Virus record (IMG/VR): IMGVR_UViG_3300045996_004589
Span: 1-44,405 of that record
Length of the DNA stretch: 44,405 bases
Direction: 5' to 3' (one strand)
From: a virus
The number at the start of each line of letters is the position of its first letter. The first letter of the stretch is position 1. Made by a program: the position numbers and the translations under genes. Positions 14,695 to 43,080 of this stretch are shown here, in pieces. A model generated the notes under the pieces. That model was not told the origin of the DNA and did not search any database. It saw only the letters and a list, made by a program, of their open reading frames with translations.

Positions 14695-14883
14695 ATGATC
14701 CATTCCATCGTAACCATCGTAACCATCGAGGCCATTCAGGCCAAAGCGCGCGCCGCGCACGCCGCCGGCGCCGGCCGTGACGATCACGAGATGAACTGGC
14801 ACTCCCCTGCCCTGGCCACCTGGCAGGAAGAGTGGGACCGCTGCGAAGCGGCCAAAATCAACGCCGAGGCGCTGGTGGCATGA
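14695..14883 (+). CDS. Small phage protein (weakly RMF-like)
   Basis: A 62-aa protein starting three bases after the previous stop and overlapping the methyltransferase start by four bases (ATGA, 14880-14883). After a hydrophobic start (MIHSIVTIVTIEAIQA) it has AHAAGAG and NWHSPALATWQEEWDRCEAA. Such G/N-P-W-W arrangements occur in short phage proteins related to ribosome-modulation factor, but the match is weak. Its coupling to the methyltransferase suggests the two are made together. Confidence 0.65.
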   Translation: MIHSIVTIVTIEAIQAKARAAHAAGAGRDDHEMNWHSPALATWQEEWDRCEAAKINAEALVA

Positions 14884-16817
14884 GGCGCGACGAATTCACG
14901 CTCGCCCTGGACCTGGGCAACGAGCTGATCATCGACAACTTCGCCGGCGGCGGCGGCACGAGCACCGGCCTGGAAGCCGCCTTCGGGCGCCCGGTCGACA
15001 TCGCGATCAACCACGACCCCGAAGCCCTGGCGATGCACGCCATCAACCACCCTCACACGAAGCACCTGTGCGAAAGCGTGTGGGACATCGACCCGATTGA
15101 GGTCACCGGCAATCGCCCAGTCGGCCTGGTCTGGCTCTCCCCGGACTGCAAGCACTTCAGCAAGGCCAAGGGCGGCAAACCCGTCGAAAAGCGGATTCGC
15201 GGCCTGGCCTGGGTGACGTTGCGCTGGGCGGCCAAGTGCAAGCCCCGCGTCATCATGCTGGAAAACGTCGAGGAGTTCAAAACCTGGGGCCCGCTGCTGG
15301 TCGATGCCGACGGCACGGCGCGGCCGGACCCTGCAAAGCGCGGCAAGACCTTCGAAAGCTTCATCCGCCAGCTGCGCGGCCACGGCTACTCCGTGGATTA
15401 CCGCGAGTTGCGCGCCAGCGACTACAACACCCCCACGATCCGCAAGCGGTTCTTCCTGGTCGCGCGCCGCGATGGCCTACCGATCTGCTGGCCGGAACAG
15501 ACCAACGGGGCGCCGACGTCGCCGGCCGTCCTGGCCGGGAAGCAGCGCCCATGGCGCACCGCGGCGGAATGCATCGACTGGTCCCTGCCCTGCCACAGCA
15601 TCTTCGAGCGCAAGAAGCCGCTGGCCGAGGCCACGCTGCGCCGGATTGCCAAAGGCATCATGCGTTACGTGGTTGAGGCGGACAAGCCGTTCATCGTCGG
15701 CCAGGGCGGCCCGATCTATTCCGGCAAGCCGGTGTCGACCGAGCAGCCACTCGGCACCCTGACCACCGAGAATCACCGATCACTGGTCGTGCCGAGCATT
15801 GTCCCGGTGACGCACCAGGGCGGCGACCGCAACGAATCGGTGCATGAACCATTCCGCACGATCACCGGCGCGCAGCGCGGCGAGAAGGCGCTGGCTGTGG
15901 CCACGCTGGTGCAGAGCGGATACGGGGAGCGTGACGGCCAGGCACCGCGCGCGCTGGACATCGAAAAGCCGCTGGGCACCGTCGTTGCCGGCGCCAGCAA
16001 GGCGGCGCTGGTAACCGCCTTCCTGAACGAGCACGCCAACGCCAGCAATCAGCGCGTGATGCCGGCCGACGAGCCGCTGCGCACTATCTGCGCCCAGGTG
16101 AAAGGCGGCCACTTCAGCATGGTGTCGGCGTCGCTGGTGGGCGTTGGCGGCCGCGCCGGTGACAGCCGCCCGCGCGGCGCCGACGAGCCGACCGCCACGA
16201 TCACGGCGAAAGGCGATACCGCGATTGCCACTGCATTCCTGGCGAAGCACTACACGGGTGTGGTTGGGTCGGATCTGGACGCCCCCATCGGCACCATCAC
16301 CTCGTCCGATCATCACAGCTTGGTCACAAGCAGCCTGGTCAAGCTCCGCGGCACCAGCACGGCGGCTGGCCTGGAAGAACCGCTCCACACGGTCAGCGCC
16401 GGCGGACAGCACCACGCTGAGGTGAGGGCCTTCCTGCTGGCCTATTACGGTCAGGAGCAGTCTCAAGGCGTCGATGGTCCTCTCGCTACGGTCACCAGCC
16501 GGGACCGTTTCGGCCTGGTCACCATCAGCGGCCAGGACTACCAGATTGTGGACATCGGCCTTCGCATGCTGGCGCCTCACGAGCTGTACGCAGCCCAGGG
16601 CTTCCCCAAGCACTACATCATCGACGAAATCCCTGATCCGGCCCTGCTGTTCAAGGACGGGCACCAGGCCGAGGGCGACCCGCTGGCCCTGCCGCGCGTG
16701 CCGCTCACGAAGTCGGCCCAGGTGCGCATGTGCGGCAACAGCGTGTGCCCTCCCCTGTCAGAGGCGCTGGTGCGCGCGAACTTCGTGCACGAGCACCAGA
16801 TTGCGAGGGTGGCATGA
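14880..16817 (+). CDS. DNA cytosine-C5 methyltransferase with eight-repeat target region
   Basis: A 645-aa C5-cytosine methyltransferase. Motif I is DNFAGGGGTSTGLEAAFG (residues 19-36), motif IV holds the catalytic Cys90 in SPDCKHFS (an unusual SPDC in place of PPC), motif VI is ENVEEF (128-133), motif VIII includes RKRFFLVARR, and motifs IX-X are MLAPHELYAAQGFP and MCGNSVCPPLSEAL. Between residues about 285 and 555 a 32-40 residue unit with the core EPLGTITA...LVTAFL is repeated eight times; this replaces a normal target-recognition domain. The enzyme probably protects phage DNA from host restriction; no restriction partner is encoded nearby. It starts by ATGA overlap with the previous gene. 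Confidence 0.93.
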   Translation: MRRDEFTLALDLGNELIIDNFAGGGGTSTGLEAAFGRPVDIAINHDPEALAMHAINHPHTKHLCESVWDIDPIEVTGNRPVGLVWLSPDCKHFSKAKGGKPVEKRIRGLAWVTLRWAAKCKPRVIMLENVEEFKTWGPLLVDADGTARPDPAKRGKTFESFIRQLRGHGYSVDYRELRASDYNTPTIRKRFFLVARRDGLPICWPEQTNGAPTSPAVLAGKQRPWRTAAECIDWSLPCHSIFERKKPLAEATLRRIAKGIMRYVVEADKPFIVGQGGPIYSGKPVSTEQPLGTLTTENHRSLVVPSIVPVTHQGGDRNESVHEPFRTITGAQRGEKALAVATLVQSGYGERDGQAPRALDIEKPLGTVVAGASKAALVTAFLNEHANASNQRVMPADEPLRTICAQVKGGHFSMVSASLVGVGGRAGDSRPRGADEPTATITAKGDTAIATAFLAKHYTGVVGSDLDAPIGTITSSDHHSLVTSSLVKLRGTSTAAGLEEPLHTVSAGGQHHAEVRAFLLAYYGQEQSQGVDGPLATVTSRDRFGLVTISGQDYQIVDIGLRMLAPHELYAAQGFPKHYIIDEIPDPALLFKDGHQAEGDPLALPRVPLTKSAQVRMCGNSVCPPLSEALVRANFVHEHQIARVA

Positions 16818-19672: not shown

Positions 19673-19700
19673 CGCAAACCTTCAACACACAAGGATGACG

Positions 19701-20114
19701 ATGAATTCCAAAGCCCAGCCAACCGTACGTCGCGGCCCGCCCGCTGCTCGAACTGCCGAGCATAGCCACGATCCCGTGGACCTTTGCCTGGAACTATGGA
19801 AGGAGTGGATGCAACAGTGCGACCGTGACCTGGGCGCCCATACCATGCGCGGCCTGGCCGGCGAAGGTGACGGCTATGGCTCGGGCGACGTCTACGAAGC
19901 GCAGCGGCGGACCGACATGCGCATCGGCGAGGCGACCAACGCGCAGATCGAGAACCTGAGCCGGATCCACTATTGGGCCATCTACCGCGCGTGCTCGATA
20001 GCCACGGCGTGGCGGTTCCCCAACGCCGACTTTATCCAGGTGCTGGCCGAGGCACGCGACGAACTTGAAACGAAATTGCGCAAAAACATTTGCACCGCAG
20101 TTCTTTTCGGATAA
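19701..20114 (+). CDS. Phage protein at antiterminator position
   Basis: A 137-aa protein of a conserved phage type: MRGLAGEGDGYGSGDVYEAQ, then IHYWAIYRACSIATAWRFPN and DELETKLRKN. I do not know a proven function. Its place is that of a Q-type late antiterminator: last early gene, directly followed by a promoter and an intrinsic terminator before the late genes. HYWAIYRACSIATAWRF could be a helix-turn-helix. The start at 19701 is chosen because AAGGA lies five nt upstream; an in-frame ATG at 19695 lies too close to it. Antitermination is an inference from layout. Confidence 0.72.
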   Translation: MNSKAQPTVRRGPPAARTAEHSHDPVDLCLELWKEWMQQCDRDLGAHTMRGLAGEGDGYGSGDVYEAQRRTDMRIGEATNAQIENLSRIHYWAIYRACSIATAWRFPNADFIQVLAEARDELETKLRKNICTAVLFG

Positions 20115-20118
20115 TAAT
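20090..20118 (+). promoter_or_regulatory. Candidate late promoter (pR'-like)
   Basis: TTGCAC (20090-20095), 17-nt spacer, AATAAT (20113-20118; five of six bases). It overlaps the end of the preceding gene, and the predicted start near 20125 lies about 55 nt before the terminator. The -35 box is weak, which is common for promoters controlled by antiterminators. Confidence 0.45.
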
Positions 20119-20155
20119 TGCGGCACTGGGTGACTTCGCTCGCCCAAAGAAAAGT

Positions 20156-20185
20156 AAAGCCACCCTAACCCGGTGGCTTTTTTCG
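20156..20185 (+). terminator. Intrinsic terminator before late genes
   Basis: AAAGCCACC (20156-20164), seven-nt loop, GGTGGCTTT (20172-20180), then more T residues: a nine-base-pair stem with a U-tract. It separates early from late genes, so late expression needs read-through or another promoter. Confidence 0.85.
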
Positions 20186-20208: not shown

Positions 20209-20436
20209 ATGATTCAATGGTTCAAGAACCTCCTGGCCCCAGTCCCAAGGATGCAGGTCGCGCGCATTAAGCCCGGCGACACCCTGGTGCTGACGTACGC
20301 TGGCAGGCTCACCAGCAACCAGCGTGACGTCCTCGTTCGTGCGTTGAAGATGTCGGCTCCCGTCGATGTGAAGTGCCTGATCCTCGATGGCGGCATGGAG
20401 CTGAATGTGTTGAGTGAGGCATGCCACCAAAGCTGA
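20209..20436 (+). CDS. Small hypothetical protein upstream of HNH gene
   Basis: A 75-aa protein (MIQWFKNLLAPVPRMQVARI then GDTLVLTYAGRLTSNQRDVL) with beta-strand and helix alternation; the end LILDGGMELNVL recalls STAS-like folds only loosely. Short proteins of this kind commonly lie just before the HNH/terminase block of cos phages. GAGG lies eight nt before the ATG. Its last 16 bases overlap the HNH gene. First gene of the late transcript. Confidence 0.7.
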   Translation: MIQWFKNLLAPVPRMQVARIKPGDTLVLTYAGRLTSNQRDVLVRALKMSAPVDVKCLILDGGMELNVLSEACHQS

Positions 20437-20747
20437 CTTCCCTCAAGCCGCGCATCACCACCCAGCCGGGCAGCAAGGTGCAGATCCTTGCCCCTGCGGC
20501 CGGCACGGTGCAGCGCAAGCGCGGCTATGCAGGCGTTATCGACCGCAACCGCATCCGCGCGCGGGACATGGGCCTGTGTCAGGAATGCGTCCGGCAGGGA
20601 GCGCCTGGTCCGGGTTGGCTGGTCGACCACATCGTCGCCCTGTGGGAAGGTGGTAGCGATGAGGACGAGAACAAGCAGACCCTTTGCAAACGTCACCACG
20701 ACGCGAAGAGCGCGGCGGAAGCGGCGCGGCGCGCCAGCGGCGGCTGA
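20421..20747 (+). CDS. HNH endonuclease (packaging-associated)
   Basis: A 108-aa HNH nuclease. The motif is complete: CQECVRQG, WLVDHIVALWEGGSDEDENKQ (in shorter pieces VDHIVALW and GGSDEDEN), TLCKRHHDAKS. In HK97-like phages an HNH protein next to the terminase assists cos cleavage and packaging together with the terminase. It overlaps the preceding gene by 16 bases and is followed by the 126-nt candidate cos interval and the small terminase gene. Confidence 0.93.
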   Translation: MPPKLTSLKPRITTQPGSKVQILAPAAGTVQRKRGYAGVIDRNRIRARDMGLCQECVRQGAPGPGWLVDHIVALWEGGSDEDENKQTLCKRHHDAKSAAEAARRASGG

Positions 20748-20873: not shown

Positions 20874-21239
20874 ATGGCCGGCGTAAAAGGGCGCAGCGGC
20901 GGCGCTCGGACCGGCGCCGGCCGCAAGCCAGAGCTCAACCCTGACGGGACCAGGAAGAATCCACCAAAGTCCGGCGGGAACTCAAAGCTGAAGACCGTCC
21001 CGGTTGACGAAATGGACATGCTCGAACTCCTCAAGCAGATCGCTTTGGGACGTATCGAGGTGAGCAACACCCAACTGCGGGCTGCGTCGGTGGCGGTGCA
21101 ATACACCCACCCGAAAAAAGGTGAGAGCAGCGGGGCCAAGGAAGCGAAGGAAGCGGCGGCCAAGGCGGCAGCGTCCGGCCGGTTCGGCCAGCGGCGCGGC
21201 CCGACTCTAGCGGCGAACGGCGGAAAGGTCGTTGAGTGA
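20874..21239 (+). CDS. Terminase small subunit
   Basis: A 121-aa DNA-recognition subunit of the packaging motor. MAGVKGRSGGARTGAGRKPE is a typical opening of small terminases in HK97-type phages. The middle (EMDMLELLKQIALGRIEVSN, LRAASVAVQYTHP) is the helical oligomerisation part, and the C-terminus is Ala/Lys/Gly-rich and basic. The stop overlaps the large-subunit ATG by one base. The start at 20874 matches the family N-terminus; the longer in-frame start lies in the candidate cos region. Confidence 0.87.
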   Translation: MAGVKGRSGGARTGAGRKPELNPDGTRKNPPKSGGNSKLKTVPVDEMDMLELLKQIALGRIEVSNTQLRAASVAVQYTHPKKGESSGAKEAKEAAAKAAASGRFGQRRGPTLAANGGKVVE

Positions 21240-22921
21240 TGGACTGGACGACGGCGTGCATAGACTGGGAAAAGCGGATTGTCAACCGCGAAAACCTGCT
21301 GCCGTGCGGGCCGCTGTTTCCCGAAGTGGCGGCAGACGCCTGGACCATCTGCCAGGAGTTCGTGCTGACCGATGTTATGGGTCAGCCGACCATGGGCGAG
21401 GCCACCCTGCCCTGGATGCGCAACCTGATTGAAGTCATCTTCGGCGCGGAAAGCCCCGAGGATGGCCGCCGGCACATTAACGAGTTCTTCTGGCTGGTGA
21501 GCAAGAAGAACGCCAAGTCGACCGGCGCCGCGGCGATCATGCTCACCGCGCTGCTGATGAACTGGCGCCAGTCGGCGGAGTTGCTGATCCTCTCCCCGAC
21601 GAAGGAAATCGCGGACAACAGCTACAAGCCGATTCGTGACTTCATCAAGGCCGACGAGGAGTTGTCCGCCCTGCTGAAGGTGCAGGACTACTTCCGGACC
21701 ATCACGCACCTGGAGACTGGCGCCACGCTGAAGGTTGTGGCCGCAGACTCGGACACGGTGTCCGGCAAGAAGGCTTCGTTCGTGTTCGTGGACGAATTGC
21801 ACGAATTCGGCAAGCAGGCGAAGGCCAGCAACATGCTGCTGGAGGCAACCGGCGGCCTGGCGTCGAGGCCTGAAGGCTTCGTGATCTACGCCACGACGCA
21901 ATCGGCGGAGCCGCCGGCGGGCGTGTTCAAGGCCAAACTGGACTATGCCCGCAAGGTACGCGACGGCCAGGTGGTCGACCGGAAGTTCCTGCCGCTGATC
22001 TACGAATTCCCGAAGGCGATGTTGGACGCTGGCGCCCACATGGACCTGCGCAACGCCTACGTGACCAACCCGAACTGGGGCGCTTCGGTGGATATCGAGC
22101 GCATCACCCAGTTGCACAGCCAGGCGAAGGAAAGCGGCGAGCAGCAATTTAAGGAGTTCCTGGCGAAGCACCTGAACGTCGAGATTGGCCTGAATCTGCG
22201 CTCCGACCGCTGGGCCGGCGCGGACTTTTGGGAGAAATCGGCCGACGCTTCGCTGGCCGACCTGGATTCCCTGCTGGCGCGCTGCGAAGTGGCGGTCGTC
22301 GGCATCGACGGCGGCGGGCTGGACGACTTGTTGGGCCTTGCCGTGGTGGGCCGCGAGCGCGACACCGGCAAATGGCTCATGTGGTGCCACGCCTGGGCGC
22401 ACGAAATCGTGCTCGAGCGGCGCAAGGAGATTGCGCCACGCCTGCTGGACTTCAAGAAGCAGCGAGACCTGACCATCGTCAAGCGCCCGGGCGACGACGT
22501 GCAGCAAGTGGCCGACGTGATCTGTCGCGTGCGTGACTCGGGTCTGCTGCCAGAAGAAAAGGGAATCGGCGTTGACGCTGCCGGCATCGGCGATGTGGTT
22601 GACGAGCTGATCACCGAAGCGCGCGGCATCACCATGGAGCAAATTGTCGCCATATCGCAGGGCTATCGGCTCAATGGGGCGATCAAGACGACCGAGCGGA
22701 AGGTTGCGGCGCGCGAGCTGCTGCACACCGACAGCGCCATGATGAATTGGTGCGTCGGCAACGCCCGGATCGAGGACAAGGGGAACGCCATCCTGATCAC
22801 GAAGGCCGCCTCCGGGAAGGCAAAGATTGACCCGCTGATGGCGGGCTTTAACGCGGTGTCGCTGATGGCCCTCAATCCTGTAGGCCAGGCGATGCCGGAA
22901 ATTATTGACTTGGGCTGGTAA
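21239..22921 (+). CDS. Terminase large subunit
   Basis: A 560-aa packaging ATPase and nuclease of the Terminase_1/HK97 type. Walker A-like WLVSKKNAKST is at residues 86-95, Walker B FVFVDELHE at 181-189, and ATTQSAEPPAGVF carries the coupling motif. The C-terminal nuclease part starts with VVGIDGGGLDDL at about 352, with further acidic residues at GIGVDAAGIGD. Length is normal. GTG at 21236 is an alternative start, but ATG at 21239 overlaps the small subunit stop in the usual way. It is directly followed by the portal gene with no gap. Confidence 0.95.
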   Translation: MDWTTACIDWEKRIVNRENLLPCGPLFPEVAADAWTICQEFVLTDVMGQPTMGEATLPWMRNLIEVIFGAESPEDGRRHINEFFWLVSKKNAKSTGAAAIMLTALLMNWRQSAELLILSPTKEIADNSYKPIRDFIKADEELSALLKVQDYFRTITHLETGATLKVVAADSDTVSGKKASFVFVDELHEFGKQAKASNMLLEATGGLASRPEGFVIYATTQSAEPPAGVFKAKLDYARKVRDGQVVDRKFLPLIYEFPKAMLDAGAHMDLRNAYVTNPNWGASVDIERITQLHSQAKESGEQQFKEFLAKHLNVEIGLNLRSDRWAGADFWEKSADASLADLDSLLARCEVAVVGIDGGGLDDLLGLAVVGRERDTGKWLMWCHAWAHEIVLERRKEIAPRLLDFKKQRDLTIVKRPGDDVQQVADVICRVRDSGLLPEEKGIGVDAAGIGDVVDELITEARGITMEQIVAISQGYRLNGAIKTTERKVAARELLHTDSAMMNWCVGNARIEDKGNAILITKAASGKAKIDPLMAGFNAVSLMALNPVGQAMPEIIDLGW

Positions 22922-24229: not shown

Positions 24230-24959
24230 CAAGGCGCGCCCTGCGCATGTTCCTCAGTCCTGCATCGTCAAGAACGCTGCTGGTGAGCCCGAGATCCTGA
24301 TCTACGACGCCATCGTGGCCGACGATATCACAGCCGAATGGTGGGGCGGCGTGTCGGCGGAAACGCTGGTTCCGGAGATCCGCAACATCAAGGGCGGCAA
24401 TGTGCACCTGCGCATCAATTCCCCCGGCGGCGACGTATTCGCCGCCCAGGCCATCGCGCAGGCCATCAAGGACACCGGCGCCAAGGTGATCGCGCACATC
24501 GACGGCTATGCGGCATCCGCCGCCACCGTGATCGCCATCGCCGCCGACGAGGTGGACATTTCCGAAGGCGGCTTCTTCATGATCCACAACGCCTGGACTT
24601 TCGCCATGGGCAACGCGTCGGACATGAAATCCACCGCGGCCCTGCTGGATAAGGTGGACGGCACCCTGACGGCGCAGTACGCCAAGAAGTCCGGCATGAA
24701 GGTCGACGACGTGAAGGCGGCTATGGACGCTGAAACCTGGTACACCGCCGACGAGGCGGTTGCCTGCGGCCTGGTCGATCGCATCGCCACCGGCGCCAAA
24801 GCCAAGAACCAGGCGGCCTGGAACCTGTCGGCCTATGCCAAGGCCCCGAAAGTCGAGCCAGACCAGCCGGAAGAGCCGGACACCGTCCACGCATCTGAAG
24901 AACATCGCGCGCGCCAGCGGCAACGCATCGCCATGATGGCGCGCCTCCAAGTTAGCTGA
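24195..24959 (+). CDS. ClpP-like prohead protease
   Basis: A 254-aa serine protease of the S14 (ClpP-like) head-maturation type. INSPGGDVFAA (residues 75-84), the nucleophile Ser108 in GYAASAATVIA, and His131 in FFMIHNAW form the active site; the Asp is probably in LLDKVDGTL. It would cut the scaffold-like N-terminus off the capsid protein during head assembly. The tail (about 220-254) is polar and basic. Its start lies inside the portal gene's last 35 bases. An intrinsic terminator follows 22 nt after its stop. Confidence 0.94.
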   Translation: MPHQLIKLLASNKARPAHVPQSCIVKNAAGEPEILIYDAIVADDITAEWWGGVSAETLVPEIRNIKGGNVHLRINSPGGDVFAAQAIAQAIKDTGAKVIAHIDGYAASAATVIAIAADEVDISEGGFFMIHNAWTFAMGNASDMKSTAALLDKVDGTLTAQYAKKSGMKVDDVKAAMDAETWYTADEAVACGLVDRIATGAKAKNQAAWNLSAYAKAPKVEPDQPEEPDTVHASEEHRARQRQRIAMMARLQVS

Positions 24960-24981
24960 CGCTCTCGCGTTACTAAACCAG

Positions 24982-25004
24982 CCGCCCTCGAGGCGGTTTT
25001 TTTT
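24982..25004 (+). terminator. Intrinsic terminator or attenuator before capsid gene
   Basis: CCGCC (24982-24986), five-nt loop, GGCGG (24992-24996), then eight T residues. It lies within the late operon between protease and capsid genes. It may limit upstream transcript reaching the capsid gene or act as a processing site; with Q-type antitermination it would be bypassed. Confidence 0.7.
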
Positions 25005-25052
25005 CGCCACTTAACCGGGCCGCGAGAGCGGAACCTGACAGAAAGGTACGAA

Positions 25053-26306
25053 ATGAGCAAGCTTGCACAACTGCGCGAACAGCGCGACCTGAAGGCCAAG
25101 GCAGCCAACGAGCTGAACAACAAATACCCCGCAGACCAACGCATGCCGTCGGCAGACGCCGAAAAGCTGGACCAGATCCTGGCGGAAGTCACCGCGATCG
25201 ACAGCGAAATTTCGCGCGAGCTGAAGCTGGTCGAGCTGGCCGGCCAAGACCCTCAAGCGCAGCACGAAGCGCTGCTGAACAAGCACACCAAGGAAGAGAG
25301 CCGCCAGTCCGACGAATCCCGCGGCTTGCGTGCCTTCCTGACCGGTGGCCTGATGAACATGTCGCAGGAAGACCGCAATCGCATCATCGCGCGCCAGACC
25401 CCGGATATCCGCGCTGCGATGTCCACCACCACTCCGGCGGAAGGCGGCTACACCACCGCGCCGGAATACCAGAAGGCGCTGGAGCAGCTGATGAAGGCCT
25501 ACGGCGGTATGCGCGCCGTGGCCACCCGCATCCAGACCGGTACCGGCACCCAAATGAACTTCCCGACCACCGACGCGACGGCGGAGGAAGGTGAAATCGT
25601 GGCGCAGAACACTGCGGTCACCGGTCTGGATACCACCTTCGGCAACACCACCCTGGACGTCTACAAGTACTCGTCCAAGAAGATCGCGCTGCCGTTCGAA
25701 CTGATCCAAGACAGCTTCATCGACATCGAGGGCTACATCCGCGAACTGCTGGCAATGCGTCTCGGCCGCATCGGCAACAAGCACCACACCATCGGCACCG
25801 GCTCCAGCCAGCCGCGCGGCATCGTGACCGCGTCTACCGTCGGCAAGACCGGCACTACCGGCCAGACCCTGACCGTGACCTACGATGACTTGGTGGATCT
25901 CGAGCACTCCGTCGACCCGGCCTATCGCGGCCTGCCTGGCGTCGGCTTCATGATGCACGACTCGTCGTTGAAAGTCGTTCGCAAGCTCAAAGACAGCCAA
26001 AACCGTCCTATCTTCGTGCCGGGCTACGAGCAGGGCAACCCGGGTGGCGCTCCGGACCGCCTGCTGGGCCGCCCGATCTACATCAACCAGGACATGCCGG
26101 TCATGGCGGCCAACGCCAAGTCCATCCTGTTCGGCGCCTACAGCAAGTACCTGATCCGCGACGTGATGGACCTGACCTTGTTCCGCATGACCGACTCGGC
26201 CTTCACGCTGCTCGGTCAGGTGGGCTTCGTTGCCTTCCAACGCATGGGCGGCAACTTGGTCGACGCCGGCGGCGCGGTCCGCCACTACGCCAACTCGGCG
26301 TCCTAA
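25053..26306 (+). CDS. Major capsid protein, HK97 fold
   Basis: A 417-aa capsid protein. The N-terminal about 100 residues (SKLAQLREQRDLKAKAANEL, AEVTAIDSEISREL) form the coiled-coil delta domain that serves as scaffold and is probably removed by the neighbouring protease. The rest has HK97 landmarks: GGYTTAPEYQKALEQL, MNFPTTDATAEEGEIV, FELIQDSFIDIEGYI, GFMMHDSSLKVVRKLKDSQ, GRPIYINQDMP, ILFGAYSKYLIRDV, VGFVAFQRMGG. AAAGG lies seven to eight nt upstream of the ATG. The length equals that of an uncleaved HK97-type precursor. Confidence 0.95.
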   Translation: MSKLAQLREQRDLKAKAANELNNKYPADQRMPSADAEKLDQILAEVTAIDSEISRELKLVELAGQDPQAQHEALLNKHTKEESRQSDESRGLRAFLTGGLMNMSQEDRNRIIARQTPDIRAAMSTTTPAEGGYTTAPEYQKALEQLMKAYGGMRAVATRIQTGTGTQMNFPTTDATAEEGEIVAQNTAVTGLDTTFGNTTLDVYKYSSKKIALPFELIQDSFIDIEGYIRELLAMRLGRIGNKHHTIGTGSSQPRGIVTASTVGKTGTTGQTLTVTYDDLVDLEHSVDPAYRGLPGVGFMMHDSSLKVVRKLKDSQNRPIFVPGYEQGNPGGAPDRLLGRPIYINQDMPVMAANAKSILFGAYSKYLIRDVMDLTLFRMTDSAFTLLGQVGFVAFQRMGGNLVDAGGAVRHYANSAS

Positions 26307-26354
26307 GCAACCGGCGCCCCGGCCGCGGCTGGGGCGCATCTCCTGGAGTAAGAC

Positions 26355-26531
26355 ATGGCAAAAGCCAAAACACAAGAAGGCAAAGTCAAGGCCCGCGTGC
26401 TGGTGGACTGCGCCCATGGCAAGTGCAATGAGGTGGTGGAAGTCGACGCGATCGAGCTCGAAGGACTGGCCGGCGTGCTGGATGCTGATCCTGCCGCTGT
26501 CGCTTACGCCGAATCGCTGGCAACCGAGTAA
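26355..26531 (+). CDS. 58-aa protein downstream of capsid gene
   Basis: A short reading frame starting MAKAKTQEGKVKARVLVDCA and ending AYAESLATE. Two Cys three residues apart around HGK (CAHGKC) suggest a small zinc or beta-hairpin site. The segment VVEVDAIELEGLAGVLDADP looks like the small proteins that follow capsid genes in many HK97-type phages. CTGGAG lies about seven nt upstream of the ATG; a GC-rich hairpin precedes it. It ends nine nt before the next gene. Confidence 0.72.
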   Translation: MAKAKTQEGKVKARVLVDCAHGKCNEVVEVDAIELEGLAGVLDADPAAVAYAESLATE

Positions 26532-26540
26532 GGAGCCGCC

Positions 26541-26939
26541 ATGGCCTTGCAATATTCCGTCGCGGTAAACAATGCCAGGCTCGATCAGGTCGAGGCGATC
26601 ATCGGCACCTCGCCGAAGCTTCGCATCTTCAGCGGTTCCGCGCCGGCCAACTGCGCGGCCGCCGACACCGGCACGCTGCTGGCCGAGCTCTCCCTACCTT
26701 CCGATTGGATGGCCGCGGCGGCATCGTCCAGCAAGGCCTTGGCCGGCTCGTGGACGGGCACCGCCTCCGCCGGCTCCAGCACGGCGCCAACGCACTTCCG
26801 TATCACCAACACCGCCGGCTCGGCGGTGGGCATGCAGGGCTCGGCCGGCGTCGGCTCGGGTGACCTGCAGGTGAACGGCTCGATTACGAATGGCCAGACG
26901 GTCACCGTGACGAGCTTCAACCTCACTTCGCCGACCTAA
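26541..26939 (+). CDS. Head-associated structural protein (decoration-like)
   Basis: A 132-aa protein of a family common in siphoviruses between capsid and connector genes. The start (NNARLDQVEAIIGTSPKLRI, FSGSAPANCAAADTGTLLAE) and beta-rich, Ser/Thr/Gly-rich rest (HFRITNTAGS, SGDLQVNGSITNGQTVTVTS) fit a surface decoration or fibre-like role. No enzyme motif. AAGGAG lies seven nt upstream of the ATG. Function within the virion is inferred from position and composition. Confidence 0.78.
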   Translation: MALQYSVAVNNARLDQVEAIIGTSPKLRIFSGSAPANCAAADTGTLLAELSLPSDWMAAAASSSKALAGSWTGTASAGSSTAPTHFRITNTAGSAVGMQGSAGVGSGDLQVNGSITNGQTVTVTSFNLTSPT

Positions 26940-26951
26940 CGGGAGAACGCC

Positions 26952-27119
26952 TTGCACATCAATAAGAAGCTGGAATACGTGTTGATCCACATGGACGGCA
27001 TTGCCACGCACGACGATGCGCCGGCCGCCGAGGTGATCGAAGCGCTGACTCGCGTGCGCGATGCGGCCAACAAGGCTATCGCGGATGTGGCTGAGCGCCG
27101 CGCCGACGAACAGCAGTAA
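26952..27119 (+). CDS. 55-aa protein with TTG start
   Basis: A short reading frame beginning at TTG (26952), five to six nt after GGGAGA. The sequence (MHINKKLEYVLIHMDGIATH, then PAAEVIEALTRVRDAANKAI) predicts two helices and a basic/acidic tail. It fills the gap between two structural genes and starts 12 nt after the upstream stop. A later in-frame ATG (26991) lacks a ribosome site and would remove a quarter of the protein. Function unknown. Confidence 0.62.
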   Translation: MHINKKLEYVLIHMDGIATHDDAPAAEVIEALTRVRDAANKAIADVAERRADEQQ

Positions 27120-27133
27120 CCGGAACCGCAAAT

Positions 27134-28012
27134 ATGCTGGCCAACTGGGTATATCAGAAGACCACGACCACCGGGACGGGGGACCTGACGCTGACGACGG
27201 TGAGCGGCTTCTCCAAGTTTTCCGACCAGTTCGTCATCGGCCAGCCGTTCTACTACGAGATCCTGAAGGATGCCGACGGCACGCCTGTGGAGGTCGGGAT
27301 CGGCAAGCTGACGAATTCCACCACGCTGCAGCGCGTGACCGTCATGCAGACCATGTCCGGCGGCGTGTTGACCAACACGGGCGCGACCGCGGTCGACCTG
27401 GCGGCCGGCACCTATCGTGTGATCTGTTCCATTCCCATGCAGGCTGGTATCGGCATCGCGCCGCCCGGCGCCAATAGCTTGGCGGCGAACCGCGGCGGCC
27501 TGCCGTACCCTCTTGTGCCCAACGTGAATAGCCGCGCGCTGACCGCCAACACGATGCACTTAGTTGCCGGGCGCGTGGACGCAGGCAAAGGCATTTCGGC
27601 CCTGGGCGCCCACGTCACCACCGCAGCCGGCACGTCGAGCGATGTGCTGCGGATCGGGCTGTACCCGGTCATGCCCGATGGTTCGGCGGGCCCGTTGGTG
27701 GCAGAGTCGGGCGATCTGCGCTGCGACACGACTGGCGTGAAGTCGGCATCGGTCGTCGACGGGAAAACAAACATCCCGCCAGGCTGGTACTACTTCGGCA
27801 TGCTGTGCAGCGCGGCGCCGAGTTTGCGAGCTGGCAACACCACCACCTTCGCGCAGATTGGCCCACTCGGCATGCTGGATGCCGGCGCGCCGTACGTGTA
27901 CGCCACCTGCGCAGCGGTATCGGCCGGCTGGACCTCGATGCCAAGCTCGATGCCAACCATCAGTTCGCTGACCCAGGCGCAATTCCCTGCCCTGCCAATC
28001 GTTTATTACTGA
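27134..28012 (+). CDS. Fibre-like structural protein in head module
   Basis: A 292-aa protein. The first 100 residues (NWVYQKTTTTGTGDLTLTTV, VEVGIGKLTNSTTLQRVTVM, GTYRVICSIPM) are an N-terminal module found in many phage fibre or head-attachment proteins. The rest (LTANTMHLVAGRVDAGKGIS, DVLRIGLYPV, PPGWYYFGMLCS) looks like a beta-sandwich that could bind carbohydrate. A gene for a possible fibre-assembly protein follows. Its place between capsid and connector genes suggests a head fibre instead of a tail fibre. No clear ribosome site is visible. Confidence 0.75.
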   Translation: MLANWVYQKTTTTGTGDLTLTTVSGFSKFSDQFVIGQPFYYEILKDADGTPVEVGIGKLTNSTTLQRVTVMQTMSGGVLTNTGATAVDLAAGTYRVICSIPMQAGIGIAPPGANSLAANRGGLPYPLVPNVNSRALTANTMHLVAGRVDAGKGISALGAHVTTAAGTSSDVLRIGLYPVMPDGSAGPLVAESGDLRCDTTGVKSASVVDGKTNIPPGWYYFGMLCSAAPSLRAGNTTTFAQIGPLGMLDAGAPYVYATCAAVSAGWTSMPSSMPTISSLTQAQFPALPIVYY

Positions 28013-28013
28013 C

Positions 28014-28514
28014 ATGATCACGTACACCGAAAAAGGCGCAGGGCTGCACGAGGCCATCACCAAGGCGGGGCACTGGCTGCGCGAGGCCGACGGCCAATGG
28101 ATTTCGTCGAACGACGCAGCAGTCCAGGCGATCATCGACGGGTACACCCTCGCCGATGCGAAGGCGGCGCGCATTCAGCAAGTGCTTGCCCATGCCAAGG
28201 CGCTGCGCGACAAAGTCGTGGCGGCCGTCAGCCCGGGCGAAATGTCTTGCTGGGCCATCAAGCGTGCCGAGGCAGTGCAGTTCCGCGCCACCGGTGATGC
28301 CGCGCAATGCCCGGTACTTTCATTGGAGGCACAGCACCGCCAAGTCACGCTGGATACTCTCGTTTCCAAGGTCGAAGCGAATGCAACGCGCCTCTCCAGC
28401 GTTGAGGCCGTGATTGGCGGCGTCGACGGCAGGCATCGTGATGCCATCGCCTCATTGACCACCTTCGAGGCCGTGGCCGCCTACAACTTCAACACCGGCT
28501 GGCCGGAAGTCTAA
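28014..28514 (+). CDS. Fibre-assembly-like protein (DUF4376-like C-terminus)
   Basis: A 166-aa protein. The middle helices (AKAARIQQVLAHAKALRDKV) and the C-terminal part (VTLDTLVSKVEANATRLSSV, HRDAIASLTTFEAVAAYNFN, ending GWPEV) resemble the DUF4376-type ends of tail-fibre assembly or fibre-accessory proteins, in which a helix with HRDAI and a final GWP-like motif recur. It directly follows the fibre-like gene, as chaperones usually do. It starts two bases after the previous stop and overlaps the next start by one base. Confidence 0.7.
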   Translation: MITYTEKGAGLHEAITKAGHWLREADGQWISSNDAAVQAIIDGYTLADAKAARIQQVLAHAKALRDKVVAAVSPGEMSCWAIKRAEAVQFRATGDAAQCPVLSLEAQHRQVTLDTLVSKVEANATRLSSVEAVIGGVDGRHRDAIASLTTFEAVAAYNFNTGWPEV

Positions 28515-29038
28515 TGTCGCTGGGGCTTACCTCTCTTGGCCTCACCCCTCTCGGGATTGCAGCCGAGCCAGAGGGTGCCACCGGCGTCACGGCCACCGCG
28601 TCGATCACGGAGGCGGCCGACACCGCTTCGGCTGCTGCGGCTGTTGCTGTAGCGGGTACCGCGGCGATCACCGAAGCCGCAGACTCGGCAGCCGGGGCGG
28701 CGCAGATCGCGGTTGGCGGTTCGGCCTCAGTGATTGAGCCTGGCGACACCGCGGCCGCATCCGCCGCAGTCGCAATCTGGCTGGCGGCAGACATCACCGA
28801 GGCCAGCGATTCGTTGGCAGCCACGGCGACGGCTGTCAGCGGCATTGTTGCGAACGCAAGCATTATTGAACAAGGCGACACCCTGGCCGCAGTCGCGGAG
28901 CTTGGTGCTCCGCCGGCGGAGATATATGCCCGCGCGCCAGCTGGCGCCGGTTATGCGCCGCGGCGGATGGTGACCACCTCGCGCCCCGCAATGACAGCCA
29001 CGCGTCGCCCATCCGCAATACAGGACAACAACAGATGA
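28514..29038 (+). CDS. Low-complexity repeat protein in head module
   Basis: A 174-aa Ala-rich protein. From about residue 25 to 130 it has five degenerate repeats of roughly 20-25 residues with the core ASITEAADTASAAAAVAV (for example SVIEPGDTAAASAAV, DITEASDSLAATATAV, SIIEQGDTLAAVAEL). The start is MSLGLTSLGLTPLGI and the C-terminus is basic (YAPRRMVTTSRPAMTATRRP). The repeats look like a regular beta or collagen-like rod; they may be part of the head fibre. Similar TEAADT repeats occur in other phages. It overlaps the neighbours by one and four bases. Confidence 0.75.
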   Translation: MSLGLTSLGLTPLGIAAEPEGATGVTATASITEAADTASAAAAVAVAGTAAITEAADSAAGAAQIAVGGSASVIEPGDTAAASAAVAIWLAADITEASDSLAATATAVSGIVANASIIEQGDTLAAVAELGAPPAEIYARAPAGAGYAPRRMVTTSRPAMTATRRPSAIQDNNR

Positions 29039-29592
29039 CCACTCGACTGATCACGCCGCCGGCTACGCCCGCCCTGAGCCTGGCTGACGCCAAAGATGCG
29101 CTGAAAATCGACACGAGCGACCAGGACGCGCAGGTCGAGGCCTGGGTGGCCGGCATTACCGCGCACGCCGAGCACCTGACAGGCCGCGCATTCGTTACGC
29201 AAACCTGGCGCGTCACCTTGGACGCATTTCCGGATGCGATCGAGCTGGCGCACCCGCCGATCAGCGCCGTGTCGTCGGTCAAGTTCATCGATACCAACGG
29301 AGTGCTGCAAACGCTGGATCCGCAGGACTACGTGCTGGACAAGGAGAGCGAGCCCGGCTACGTCGTGCCGGCGCCCGAGAAATCGTGGCCCTCGACCGCC
29401 AGCCAGATCAACGCGGTGAAGGTTGAATACACCTGCGGCTATGGCGTGGATACCGACATCCCCGAAAGCATCCGCCTATACCTGATTGCCAAGCTGCGCG
29501 AGCAGTACGATCCCGCGATCAAGGCGGACAAGGGGACTGTGCAAAGCAGCTTCCTCGATCGCCTGCTGGACCGTGAAACGGTGTTTGCATGA
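29035..29592 (+). CDS. Head-tail connector (HK97 gp6 / phiE125 gp8-like)
   Basis: A 185-aa connector subunit that would form a ring below the portal. LSLADAKDALKIDTSDQDAQ, VAGITAHAEHLTGRAFVTQT, PISAVSSVKFIDTNG, YVLDKESEPG and VKVEYTCGYG, then IPESIRLYLIAKLREQYDP are typical features of this family. The long helix bundle at both ends with a beta insert in the middle fits known connector folds. Coupled to both neighbours by four-base overlaps. Confidence 0.9.
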   Translation: MTTRLITPPATPALSLADAKDALKIDTSDQDAQVEAWVAGITAHAEHLTGRAFVTQTWRVTLDAFPDAIELAHPPISAVSSVKFIDTNGVLQTLDPQDYVLDKESEPGYVVPAPEKSWPSTASQINAVKVEYTCGYGVDTDIPESIRLYLIAKLREQYDPAIKADKGTVQSSFLDRLLDRETVFA

Positions 29593-29909
29593 GCCTGTCC
29601 GCGAACCTGCGCCATAAGGTGGCGATCCAGGCCCGGGCGGGCTCGACGGACGACCTGGGGCAGCCGAACGACACCTGGAGTACCGTCGCTGAGCCCTGGG
29701 CAGACATCCGCTACCTGAATGGCATGTCGGCCATCAAGACCGGCGCCGACCATTCGGTGGTCCAGGCGTCGATCCGTTTGCGCTACCGCACCGGCCTGAA
29801 CGCAGGCATGCGCGTTGTGTACGGCGCGACAGTGTTCGAAATCCAGGCGATCCTGCCTGACGAGCACGGCCGCGTCTATATGGACCTGACGTGCAAGGTG
29901 ATCCAGTGA
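29589..29909 (+). CDS. Head closure protein (SPP1 gp16-like)
   Basis: A 106-aa protein of the head-closure/head-tail joining family. LRHKVAIQARAGSTDDLGQP, TWSTVAEPWADIRYLNG, HSVVQASIRLRYRTGLNAGM, RVVYGATVFEIQAIL and YMDLTCKVI are the usual strand pattern of this small beta-barrel. It seals the capsid after packaging and provides the attachment site for the tail. It overlaps neighbours by four bases at each end (ATGA at the start, GTGA at the end). Confidence 0.92.
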   Translation: MSLSANLRHKVAIQARAGSTDDLGQPNDTWSTVAEPWADIRYLNGMSAIKTGADHSVVQASIRLRYRTGLNAGMRVVYGATVFEIQAILPDEHGRVYMDLTCKVIQ

Positions 29910-30442
29910 GTTTCCTTCGCGTCGACCTGGCGGGCCTGAATGGCCTGCTCGACACCATGGGCGAGCGTGCAGAGGAAGGGGCGCGCCCCAGCGCGCAGGC
30001 CGCTAGCCAGGTGCTGTACGACGAAGTAAAGAAGAACGTCAGCGCGATCGGGCGCAGGTCCGGCAACCTGGATCGATCAATCTACCAAGCCTATTCGGAA
30101 GCGAACAGCGGCGCCGGCCGCGCGACCTACCACGTGAGCTGGAACCCGCGCAAGGCGCCGCACGGCCACCTGCTGGAGTTCGGCTATATCCAGCGCTACG
30201 TATCGTACATGGGCAAGGACGGCAACTGGTACACGGCTGTACGGCCATCGATGCGCGGCAAGAAAGCCCCGAGCCGCACCGCCTCGCCGGCGGTGAAGGC
30301 CGCGTACTACGTGCCCCTGGCGACGCCGAAGCAGGTAGCCGCCCGCCCCTTCGTGCGCAAAGCGCAATCCGCGTTCGCGATCGCTCAACTGGCCGCCGAA
30401 CAGAAACTGCTGGAGATCATCAACCATGGCCCTGGAAAGTAA
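29906..30442 (+). CDS. HK97 gp10-like tail completion protein
   Basis: A 178-aa protein of the HK97 gp10 family, involved in joining or completing the tail. Landmarks: VDLAGLNGLLDTMGER, ASQVLYDEVKKNVSAIG, YHVSWNPRKAPHGHLLEFGY, and PFVRKAQSAFAIAQLAAEQK. The HGHLLEFG block is diagnostic. The start is GTG at 29906, overlapping the previous stop (GTGA). It overlaps the next gene by 17 bases. Confidence 0.92.
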   Translation: MSFLRVDLAGLNGLLDTMGERAEEGARPSAQAASQVLYDEVKKNVSAIGRRSGNLDRSIYQAYSEANSGAGRATYHVSWNPRKAPHGHLLEFGYIQRYVSYMGKDGNWYTAVRPSMRGKKAPSRTASPAVKAAYYVPLATPKQVAARPFVRKAQSAFAIAQLAAEQKLLEIINHGPGK

Positions 30443-30782
30443 GCTGACCACCGCGCTCAAGGCCGTGTGCACGCGCACGTTCCCCGACTTCGCGCCATTC
30501 GACACCGCGCGCCCGTACGTGACGTATCAGCAAATCGGTGGCGCCGTGATCAAGCCGCTGGCGCGCGAAGTGCCGAACATGGAAAACGCGGAGATCCAGG
30601 TCAACGTCTGGTCGAACACCCGCGCCGAAGCCAAGGCGCTGATCAAGCAGATCGAGGAGGCGATCATCGTGGAGACCGGTTTCGTCGGCAAGCCGAGCGC
30701 GGCCGCCGTTTCCGACTTCGACGCCGATATCCCCGTCTATTGCAGCAGGCAGGACTTCAGCATTTGGTGCGAACGCACCTAG
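30426..30782 (+). CDS. Tail completion protein, DUF3168-like
   Basis: A 118-aa protein resembling the DUF3168/gp17-type tail terminator. LESKLTTALKAVCTRTFPDF, RPYVTYQQIGG, MENAEIQVNVWSNTRAEAKA, LIKQIEEAI, and the C-terminal strand VYCSRQDFSIWCE fit the alpha-beta pattern. It would cap the tail tube and help attach it to the head. Its start lies within the last 17 bases of the gp10-like gene. Confidence 0.87.
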   Translation: MALESKLTTALKAVCTRTFPDFAPFDTARPYVTYQQIGGAVIKPLAREVPNMENAEIQVNVWSNTRAEAKALIKQIEEAIIVETGFVGKPSAAAVSDFDADIPVYCSRQDFSIWCERT

Positions 30783-30796
30783 TTTTTCGTAGTAGC

Positions 30797-30864
30797 GCCC
30801 GCAAGGGCTTCAAACCAACCCGCCGATCGAAAGAGACGCGGGTTTTTTTATGCCCCTTGCGGGC
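30797..30864 (+). terminator. Terminator nested in an 11-bp inverted repeat, before tail tube gene
   Basis: The inner hairpin is AACCCGC (30817-30823) with GCGGGTT (30838-30844) and a T-tract (to 30849), an intrinsic terminator. It is flanked by a perfect 11-bp inverted repeat, GCCCGCAAGGG (30797-30807) and CCCTTGCGGGC (30854-30864). The left arm alone can also fold as GCCC-GCAA-GGGC with a GNRA loop. Confidence 0.75.
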
Positions 30865-30887
30865 CTATCCAATAGAAAGGAAGCACC

Positions 30888-31529
30888 ATGGCGTACAACG
30901 TACCCGAGGGGAGCTTGCAGCAGTTCTCCGCAACCTTTGCTTCGGCAAAGACCATTACCGCAGTGACGAACGCCAACCCGGCGGTGGCCACCAGCACCGC
31001 GCACGGCTACACGACCAACGACGAGATCCTGCTGACCTCGGGCTGGGAAGATGCAACGGACACGGTTTTCCGCATCGAAGTGGTCGACGCAAACAGCTTC
31101 AAGATCCTGGGCCTGAACACCACCAACACCAGTTTCTTCCCCGCTGGCACTGGCACCGGCACCGCGCAAAAGATCTCGGCATGGCAGACCATTCCGCAGG
31201 TGCTGACCATTGCCAGCTCCGGCGGTGATCCGAAATTCACCGAGGTCAACCCTCTGTCGAAGCGCAACGGTCTGAGCATCCCGACCGGCTTCAACTCCTC
31301 CAATCTGACCCTGACCTTGGGTCACGATGCCACGAACGCCACCTATCAGCAAATGCTGGACATCAGCCGCTCGCTGTCCAAGGTGGCATTCCGCCAGGTG
31401 CTGTCCGGTCCGTCGTACCAGTACGGCTATGGCTACATGGCCACCTCGGAAGTTCCGCAGTTGAACGCCGGCCAGGTCAACCAAGTGACCTCCTCGCTGG
31501 CCTTCCAAGGCCGCGTCATCTCTTACTAA
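30888..31529 (+). CDS. Major tail (tube) protein
   Basis: A 213-aa beta-rich protein at the usual position of the tail tube subunit. It begins MAYNVPEGSLQQFSATFASA, has a Thr/Ala-rich strand region (AVATSTAHGYTTNDEILLTS), SLSKVAFRQVLSGP, and ends VTSSLAFQGRVISY, a typical final strand of the tube fold. AAAGGA lies seven to eight nt upstream of the ATG. It is followed by a strong hairpin and then the tail chaperone genes, as in other long-tailed phages. Confidence 0.9.
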   Translation: MAYNVPEGSLQQFSATFASAKTITAVTNANPAVATSTAHGYTTNDEILLTSGWEDATDTVFRIEVVDANSFKILGLNTTNTSFFPAGTGTGTAQKISAWQTIPQVLTIASSGGDPKFTEVNPLSKRNGLSIPTGFNSSNLTLTLGHDATNATYQQMLDISRSLSKVAFRQVLSGPSYQYGYGYMATSEVPQLNAGQVNQVTSSLAFQGRVISY

Positions 31530-31547
31530 GCAGTAACCGAGCATAGG

Positions 31548-31582
31548 CCGGAGTGTGTCGCCTTCGCGGGCGCGCACTCCGG
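31548..31582 (+). other. Strong hairpin after tail tube gene
   Basis: CCGGAGTG (31548-31555) pairs perfectly with CACTCCGG (31575-31582), and the inner bases also pair in part (GTCGCC/GGGCGC region). No T-tract follows, so it is less a terminator than an RNA-stabilising or processing hairpin behind a highly expressed gene. Confidence 0.55.
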
Positions 31583-31621
31583 TACTAGCAATCACATCCT
31601 CCCGCGAAAGGAAACCGCAAC

Positions 31622-32059
31622 ATGGCAAAGCTGATCCTGGGCAAACCGCCCAAAACCATTTCCAAAGACCTGACCTTCCCAATGCTGGACGGCACCACCG
31701 GCAGCATCAAGGTCGATTTCAAGTATCGCACCCGATCCGACTACGCCAAGTTCGTTGACGACCAGGCCGAGAAGGTCAAGGTTCAGGCCGAGGCCGAGCT
31801 TGCAGCGATGAAGGCCAAGGCCGCCGAGCAGAAGGAGGCCGGCACGTCGATCGATCTGGGCATGCCGGAAGCCGACATGCAGGCGCGCAAGACCGAAAGC
31901 CAGGCCGATTTCATCCTGGGTGCGCTGGACGGCTGGAACCTCGATATTCCGTTCGACCGCGAGGCCGTCGTGCAGCTGGTCGATGAAGTGCCGCAAGCGG
32001 CGCAAACCATCATCGCCGCGTACCGCGAGGCGATGACCGAGGGCCGGCTGGGAAACTAA
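31622..32059 (+). CDS. Tail assembly chaperone G
   Basis: A 145-aa protein at the position of lambda gpG, which coats the tape measure protein during tail assembly. LILGKPPKTISKDLTFPMLD, GSIKVDFKYRTRSDYAKFVD, a long charged coiled coil (KVKVQAEAELAAMKAKAAEQ), then FILGALDGWNLDIPFD and AAQTIIAAYREAMTEGRLGN. The last codons read CTG-GGA-AAC-TAA, so GGGAAAC precedes the stop and allows a -1 shift into the GT extension. AAAGGA lies nine nt upstream of the ATG. Confidence 0.92.
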   Translation: MAKLILGKPPKTISKDLTFPMLDGTTGSIKVDFKYRTRSDYAKFVDDQAEKVKVQAEAELAAMKAKAAEQKEAGTSIDLGMPEADMQARKTESQADFILGALDGWNLDIPFDREAVVQLVDEVPQAAQTIIAAYREAMTEGRLGN

Positions 32060-32388
32060 AAGCGGCCGCCAAGGCGTACTACGAAACGACGGACAAGAAG
32101 CAGGAAGCGAATCCTTTCGTCGCAGCCGTAGTCGCCGCCGGCGGCATCTTGAAGGAGTTCGAGGTATGGCCTGAGAACTGGCCGGCGGCGCTTCTCTTCT
32201 GCCACCTCCAGACCCAGTGGGTACCGGGCCCCAACGGCGTGTTGGGGATCAATTACCTGGTCCTGTACCACAAGCTCGATCGCATGAACCTGGAGCCCGC
32301 CGAGTATGAACAGCTCGAAATGGACATCCAGGTAATGGAACTTGCCGCACTCGAAAAAATGCAGGAACAAAAGGAGCAGGCAGCATGA
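31622..32388 (+). CDS. Tail assembly chaperone GT fusion (-1 frameshift product)
   Basis: The T part is open in the -1 frame from 32056 to 32388 (110 residues) and begins LKAAAKAYYETTDKKQEANP. It continues FVAAVVAAGGILKEFEVWPE, WPAALLFCHLQTQWVPGPNG, YLVLYHKLDRMNLEP, and EQLEMDIQVMELAALEKMQE, which fits the small T-like partner (DUF1799-type) found after G in siphoviruses. The fusion would be 255 aa. An independent start for the T part would have to be TTG at 32149, without a ribosome site. Its end overlaps the tape measure start (ATGA). Confidence 0.87.
32050..32056 (+). promoter_or_regulatory. -1 frameshift slippery site GGGAAAC
   Basis: The heptamer G-GGA-AAC is in the correct X-XXY-YYZ phase at the last two sense codons of gene G, with the stop TAA directly after it. 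Lambda uses GGGAAAG for its G/GT shift. Slippage to GGG-AAA lets translation continue from C32056 to 32388. Confidence 0.88.
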
Positions 32389-37238: not shown

Positions 37239-37248
37239 GGAAAACAGC

Positions 37249-40232: not shown

Positions 40233-40636
40233 AGGCACTGATCACCGCAGCCGGCCCACTCGGGCCATTCCAAAGCATCGACGTCGAGGCGGACCGGTAT
40301 CGGGCCGACGGTATGGAGTTTCCATTTTCCGTTATCGGCACGGCCGAAGTAGTGGATGCAGAAACCGTCTCGTGGCCGAGTCTTTCTCCAATGGTTCCGA
40401 AGGTAGTCACGCGGCGGCAAGCGCTCCAAGCGTTGCTGTTGGCCGATCTGCTCGATAGCGTGCAACCCGCGATCGATGCCATTCCAGATCCAACGGCACG
40501 CCGATTGGCGCAGATCGAGTGGGACGATTCCCTGGAATTCCAGCGCGACCGGCCATTGGTGATCAGCATTGCTGCCCAATTGGGCCTTACTCCGGAAGGG
40601 CTCGATGAGCTTTTCGTTCACGCATCTGGCCTGTAA
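40229..40636 (+). CDS. Fibre-associated small protein
   Basis: A 135-aa protein coupled to the fibre gene by a four-base overlap. The N-terminal half is beta-rich (SIDVEADRYRADGMEFPFSV, IGTAEVVDAETVSWP). The C-terminal half (VTRRQALQALLLADLLDSVQ, LAQIEWDDSLEFQRDRPLVI, LGLTPEGLDELFVHA) is typical of short proteins that follow phage fibres, probably accessory or assembly factors. No catalytic motif. A 57-nt gap follows before the next gene. Confidence 0.78.
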   Translation: MKALITAAGPLGPFQSIDVEADRYRADGMEFPFSVIGTAEVVDAETVSWPSLSPMVPKVVTRRQALQALLLADLLDSVQPAIDAIPDPTARRLAQIEWDDSLEFQRDRPLVISIAAQLGLTPEGLDELFVHASGL

Positions 40637-40693
40637 AGATATTCATTGAAGCACCGAAGTTCTTGCACCACTTCAGCGATAAGGAATATTGAC

Positions 40694-42820: not shown

Positions 42821-42885
42821 GCGCAGCTGGTGAGCCGGCGGTAGCGCCAGGCGGCCCTGCATAAATGGCAAAAAAATCCGCACAA

Positions 42886-42916: not shown

Positions 42917-42942
42917 CAGGATGACGTAAGTCATTGAATTCA

Positions 42943-43033
<91 letters not shown>

Positions 43034-43078: not shown

Positions 43079-43080
43079 GC

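Follow-up and report, generated by a model that had tools for sequence, protein, structure and literature searches.

A compact cassette at the 3' end of a gene from a new protein family is very likely a Q-type late gene switch in a phage genome

A 137-aa gene and the promoter, hairpin and terminator that overlap it or follow it closely form a compact cassette that is very likely a Q-type late gene switch, in which RNA polymerase loaded with the 137-aa protein would become resistant to termination. The cassette is in IMG/VR virus record IMGVR_UViG_3300045996_004589, which was analyzed as one stretch of 44,405 nucleotides, positions 1 to 44,405 (hereafter "the window", by which we mean this whole stretch). 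In the lambda layout of pR' and tR', Q turns a short terminated RNA into the late transcript, and a pR'/tR'-like late switch had been proposed for this site in the initial annotation. That proposal was strengthened by our analyses, as the layout proved to be conserved across a divergent family and to stand before terminases of several PHROGs. The sequence has the features of such a switch, namely a promoter, a close terminator, a position before the late operon and a candidate antiterminator gene next to them (Table 1). From these features we infer promoter activity, termination, a role of the 5' hairpin in loading and antitermination by the 137-aa protein.

Table 1. Positions in the window of the predicted cassette elements and of the surrounding features.
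Feature	Positions	Strand	Basis or remark
Block common to the window and IMGVR_UViG_3300044648_000049	19680-20183	+	503 of 504 bases identical
137-aa gene, candidate antiterminator of a new family	19701-20114	+	Translated open reading frame and family comparison
-35 element TTGCAC	20090-20095	+	Inside the last codons of the gene
-10 element AATAAT	20113-20118	+	Overlaps the TAA stop
5'-terminal RNA hairpin, 7 bp, loop CTTCGC (predicted)	20127-20146	+	Folding and family conservation
tR'-like intrinsic terminator, 9-bp stem and six T	20156-20183	+	Conserved in relatives
HNH endonuclease	20421-20747	+	Early in the late operon; Pfam/PHROG match
Terminase small and large subunits	20874-22921	+	PHROG match
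Intrinsic terminator before the major capsid gene	24980-24998	+	In the late operon
Intrinsic terminator before the major tail protein gene	30817-30849	+	Stem ~30817-30843, then T run

In the window alone, the promoter and terminator are no better than chance. A 20-kb scan found 2 promoter-like sites, versus 3.2 in shuffles, and 18 terminator-like sites, versus 16.6 in shuffles. It is conservation in 103 distinct relatives that makes these sites significant. A total of 159 loci with a family hit were gathered from genomes and viral contigs, of which 111 were distinct below 90% identity and 103 were used. The eight distinct loci left out were L102, L110, L125 (broken frame), L030 (weak) and L133-L136; the last four, L133, L134, L135 and L136, are divergent, weak relatives in which no cassette was seen. 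The loci come from related phages and the counts reported here are not counts of independent events.

The TTGCAC/AATAAT promoter noted at the outset near the end of the 137-aa gene was confirmed in its position and in its conservation among the relatives. Its two elements are separated by a spacer of 17 nt, the -35 element reads TTTGCA if taken one base earlier, and transcription is predicted to start at ~20125. A promoter-like site (score of at least 8 out of 12) overlapped the gene end in 91 of 103 loci. The corresponding rates were 18.9% for dinucleotide shuffles and 5.4% for the ends of other ORFs in these loci (n = 709). With a stricter procedure, the promoter was placed in 92 of the 103 loci; in 72 of these the -10 element started exactly at the stop codon, in nine it started 3 nt later, and in nine (L108, L121, L152, L154, L155, L163, L176, L180 and L182) the promoter was outside the gene, 21-42 nt past the stop. 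The -35 element in L121, one of these nine, is TTGACA. Placement was not possible in 11 of 103 loci, including L097, L098, L106 and L109, whose gene ends lack the promoter or hairpin and may represent decayed or rewired switches. Codon usage at the -35 element indicates selection on the DNA itself, beyond the protein code. Among loci with I/V/L-Ala at this site, which were not chosen by their TTG, the I/V/L codon was NTT in all 73 cases and the Ala codon was GCA in 52 of the 73, compared to 14.9% and 18.5%, respectively, elsewhere in these genes. As the spacer between the -35 and -10 elements is coding sequence in most loci, conservation of a binding element there is not separately readable.

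The stem of the tR'-like terminator is formed by AAAGCCACC (20156-20164) and GGTGGCTTT (20172-20180), with the T tract at 20178-20183, and given the predicted start the terminated RNA would be ~59 nt in length. This agrees with the nine-base-pair terminator and short RNA of about 60 nt in the initial annotation; its distance of about 55 nt between start and terminator, on the other hand, needs revision, as the stem begins ~31 nt after the start. With an energy-based detector, an intrinsic terminator was found at most 227 nt past the stop in 90 of 103 loci, versus 60 of 689 other ORF ends, and this detector found none in the other 13 loci. A detector that does not allow bulges found a terminator in 70 of 103 loci (5.1% of 692 controls). 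Promoter and terminator occurred together in 85 of 103 loci. The U tract lies a median of ~53 nt past the predicted +1. We noted also that the stem of the tR'-like terminator, AAAGCCACC / GGTGGCTTT, recurs in a terminator-like site on the minus strand at the end of the late region (42891-42917). Separately, many members of one clade (L201-L239) show conservation just past the T tract, in sequence where no gene was identified.

By sequence comparison, the 137-aa protein is a new sequence family, undescribed in the libraries searched. The coding part of its gene is 19701-20111 and its TAA stop is at 20112-20114. The window protein had zero matches in Pfam or PHROGs at E values up to 1, and no credible match to either library was obtained for 41 family members, whose best E values (0.001 for Pfam and 0.022 for PHROGs) were to scattered families. 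The earlier statement that the protein is unlike known Q families is borne out by these searches. In tblastn searches, four members representing different branches had no hit among 50,697 phage records, and the window protein was not found in 72,556 plasmid records. A near-identical stretch is present in a Pseudoduganella metagenome-assembled genome (MAG), and prophage-borne relatives were found in 50 of 392 genomes of the bacterial family to which this MAG belongs (four-row profile, E up to 0.001). With a 41-row profile and E up to 1e-5, relatives were found in 3 of 399 genomes drawn at the order level and in 1 of 398 drawn at the phylum level, both counts including the Pseudoduganella MAG itself. 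No description of this protein family, or of a Q switch with a 5' hairpin, was found in the open-licence PMC literature.

The protein is predicted to consist of an N-terminal W-x2-W helix, a flexible loop and a sigma-region-4-like C-terminal part. Its model, based on an alignment of 84 rows, had a mean pLDDT of 73.4. In none of the searches, whether with the window protein or with a relative, did Foldseek give a match at E up to 0.001. In a second structural comparison, the best seven rows for the window model were sigma factors (Z 5.0-5.8), with the C-terminal part of the model falling on region 4; the Q protein of phage 21 (21Q) was not among the rows for this model. A shorter relative (L192, m6d598d8640b2) was modeled with a pLDDT of 79.4 and a pTM of 0.67, and the second row for this model was 6jny_A, the crystal structure of phage 21 Q, at Z 6.3 and 2.9 Å over 78 residues (model residues 17-109), a value that, like any Z below 8, is only suggestive, and helical proteins may share a common arrangement. 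The alignment to 6jny_A spans the N-terminal helix as well as the C-terminal part; most of the other top rows were sigma region 4. The "new type of antiterminator" first suggested is thus new as a sequence family, while its fold, judging by the relative's model with its moderate Z, is probably of a known kind, the sigma-region-4 and phage 21 Q class. The structure of 21Q has been described as a sigma region 4 with a packed helix, like an anti-sigma factor (PMC6606751), and AlpA as 21Q-like without sequence homology (PMC9371919); published systems are represented here and below by excerpts of the papers cited.

Sequence links to 21Q-type proteins were faint. The family profile had no match among PDB chains at the sequence level, PF06530 was absent from the families matched by the 41 members (E up to 1), and hhalign against PF06530-type proteins gave a probability of 0.2% at best, the set being nine loci from a PF06530 search minus L325 (wrong frame) and L330 (sigma-like). 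With a home-made profile of eight PF06530-type proteins, the best member was L112 (E 0.0059 in a set of 107). A scan for E. coli QuuD gave 80 loci, all of 100% identity and as such unfit for a profile. Since testing with the family profile did not place the 137-aa protein in PF06530 (Phage_antitermQ), we have not filed it there.

The position of the cassette in the genome is what would be expected of a late switch. Genes for NinG, a replication protein and a DnaC-like loader are located upstream of it, and those for HNH, TerS, TerL, portal, protease, capsid and tail are located downstream. (An unusually long protein of 661 aa is encoded at 14832-16817, with a Pfam cytosine methylase match to residues 33-218 only and PHROG methyltransferase matches in its C-terminal part.) In 76 loci, the cassette is followed by 2.5 kb or more of sequence; among these, the terminase large subunit was downstream on the same strand in 52 and upstream or on the other strand in none. 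TerL, TerS or HNH was found downstream in 53 of the 76, and none of these three queries in 23. The downstream terminases belong to PHROGs 9, 15 and 2, and the cassette therefore appears to serve different late modules. Upstream of TerS in kin phages, 124 ORFs (of 156 found) had no match to a Pfam antitermination family, with 14 families matched in all, so that direct replacement by a known Q was not observed. Further terminators had been noted within the late operon at 24982 and 30797, and both are present, before the major capsid and major tail protein genes (Table 1). No promoter-like site was found in 24405-44404, in which 3.7 were expected by chance, and read-through of these two terminators is accordingly expected to be needed. 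Each of them is enclosed by an outer inverted repeat of at least 10 pairs (24961-25030 and 30798-30865). These repeats can form only after read-through, and are possible processing or stabilising stems.

The location of the gene raises an alternative explanation. RinA, ArpU and Ltr are sigma-region-4-like regulators of Gram-positive phages that are encoded just before terS. If the 137-aa protein were an activator of this kind, it would act on the promoter at its gene's 3' end, and the terminator would merely close the early operon. The predicted sigma-region-4-like fold, the place of the gene directly before the terminases and the off-consensus -35 element TTGCAC would all suit an activator. 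Nevertheless, we consider this explanation improbable. This is because the terminator is ~53 nt past the start in most loci, and activation alone would give only a short RNA, and because two further terminators have to be passed before the capsid and tail genes. Additionally, one top row in the fold comparison was the antiterminator 21Q, with the N-terminal helix spanned too.

Comparison of the window with IMGVR_UViG_3300044648_000049 (L001) revealed, for this one pair of phages only, a nearly identical block of 504 bp that encloses the gene, promoter, hairpin and terminator. The upstream flank, in a replication gene, has 67-83% identity per 60 bases in the nearest 360 bases, and the flank behind the terminator has 40-58% identity per 60 bases. 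Further downstream the two genomes are similar again (HNH up to 95%, TerL 93.9%), which points to ordinary mosaic exchange, the borders of which still enclose all four elements. That the element is shared together with the gene in this pair argues against its being the source of a ~59-nt small regulatory RNA, or an early-operon terminator with a fortuitous promoter, with the protein unlinked to either. A discrete promoter-hairpin-terminator transcript is indeed predicted, as a small RNA would have, but late genes follow the element, no further promoter-like site was found in 24405-44404, and the element has been retained in loci where the promoter drifted out of the gene. We regard such an unlinked element as very improbable. 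A phage moron has its own promoter upstream of the gene and a terminator behind it; this arrangement was ruled out, as the promoter at the 3' end of the 137-aa gene reads away from the gene.

The promoter and terminator in the original list of parts were both correct, and the hairpin between them had been missed. Folded alone it has a free energy of -10.3 kcal/mol, and in most loci its stem starts ~7 nt past the -10 element, at the predicted transcription start. A hairpin score of at least 15 was obtained in 51 of 103 loci, versus 10.1% of 692 controls, and in 53 of 92 loci the fold of the region ranked in the bottom 5% relative to shuffles of the same sequence. Several features suggest that the hairpin has probably been selected as RNA. 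In 73 of 92 loci the transcript strand folded more stably than the complementary strand, and in 19 less stably (Wilcoxon p 4e-12, for loci that are not independent). In alignments A8 and A9, representing 37 and 29 of the 92 promoter-placed loci, G-U outnumbered A-C among the non-Watson-Crick pairs (53 vs 14 in A8, 40 vs 18 in A9), a bias that would be expected of RNA but not of a DNA palindrome. Within one clade, members differ in loop length (5 or 9 nt; L115 and L120 vs L118) but retain the stem, which is unlike a DNA site with fixed half-site spacing. Pairing was specific to its register, with 88.5% of cells paired versus at most 48.4% when slid, and 71.8% versus at most 46.6%, but covariation within either clade was not above that of shuffled columns, so the case for RNA rests on strand asymmetry, including the G-U excess, and on the change in loop length.

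A hairpin at the very 5' end that is more stable on the transcript strand would also be compatible with antitermination by RNA only, as in HK022 put, with the hairpin modifying the polymerase and the protein doing something else, but this is extremely unlikely, as the hairpin has 5-7 bp and a variable sequence in the family (put, as excerpted in PMC9378689, has ~70 nt and two stem-loops), no Rfam family reached its gathering score for the cassette RNA, and the protein gene travels with the hairpin. Identity with put itself was rejected, the cassette having a single 7-bp hairpin and a terminator.

Overall, our data favor a Q-type switch that would operate as follows. The promoter in the 3' end of the gene would be constitutive, yielding the terminated ~59-nt RNA in the lysogen. 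Once the early operon is on, the 137-aa protein would accumulate and load on RNA polymerase at this promoter, and the loaded polymerase would resist the terminator 31-59 nt downstream as well as those before the capsid and tail genes. The late operon could then be read, from HNH, TerS, TerL, portal, protease, capsid and tail to lysis. The protein probably acts like 21Q and AlpA, with a sigma-region-4-like helix-turn-helix and with an N-terminal helix plus loop positioned at the RNA exit channel. As for the 5' hairpin, it may serve as a recognition site, induce a hairpin pause or keep a ring-forming protein locked on the RNA.

Loading may differ from that of classical Q proteins. The characterised Q proteins and AlpA need a -10-like pause signal (excerpts of PMC6606751 and PMC9371919). 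A search from about -1 to +21, relative to the predicted start sites, found no -10-like NANNAT pause motif in the window nor in 79 of 92 loci, and the cassette has the 5' hairpin. We tentatively raise the possibility, which we hold to be somewhat doubtful, that this Q-like system loads without a sigma-dependent pause and that the hairpin at +1/+2 replaces the -10-like sequence. At the RNA exit channel, the hairpin would in that case be read by a 21Q-like protein that forms a ring, or would lock this protein, for example by acting as a stop behind the ring through which the RNA is threaded. If the hairpin does replace the sigma pause, Q-type proteins would have a second loading route, and pausing and loading, which occur together in the systems studied so far, would become separable. 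For the Q-type switch as a whole, the significance is that a likely function can be proposed for a protein family that was unrecognised by Pfam, PHROGs and a large phage collection.

The cassette has both similarities to and differences from known systems. HK022 put RNA likewise features a hairpin close to the 5' end of an RNA on which antitermination acts; it is larger, with its two stem-loops, is found at early promoters and, in the excerpted description, has no dedicated protein (PMC9378689). GafZ of the Caulobacter gene transfer agent differs in that it acts with GafY and IHF, its binding palindrome is between the -10 and -35 elements, and the terminator is behind the first gene, versus at +31 in the cassette (excerpts of PMC11150451). 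VG_p50 of phage VarioGold is, like the 137-aa protein, a small Burkholderiales phage protein encoded slightly upstream of an HNH gene, and its authors placed it in PF06530 via HHpred and called it Q-like (excerpts of PMC9658991). It has weak blastp similarity to L119, from one branch of our family (E 0.005 in a set of 107). Unlike our family, VG_p50 groups with the PF06530-type proteins (E 9e-28 with the home-made profile of eight), and inspection by eye of its stop codon revealed no such promoter-hairpin-terminator arrangement.

The closest parallels are AlpA and 21Q. AlpA of Pseudomonas aeruginosa is an antiterminator that shares the fold of 21Q but has no sequence homology with it (PMC9371919), and a terminator is predicted to begin 26 bp past one of its target starts. 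It differs from the 137-aa protein in controlling the alpBCDE lysis genes and a second locus, and not a phage late operon, and its binding element has been mapped between the -35 and -10 elements (excerpts of PMC7969949 and PMC9371919). As in the cassette, the gene of 21Q (PF06530 type) adjoins its own late promoter and terminator, and 21Q is a small protein with an N-terminal helix, a flexible loop and a sigma-region-4-like domain, as is predicted for the 137-aa protein; the predicted fold match of the relative to 6jny_A was moderate. Unlike 21Q, the 137-aa family has no significant sequence match to the 21Q type, its -35 and -10 elements are within the end and stop codon of the gene, and most of its cassettes have a conserved 5'-terminal hairpin instead of a -10-like pause motif. 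The 137-aa family would thus fit the picture that 21Q and AlpA have given, in which unrelated sequences share one sigma-region-4-like antiterminator fold.
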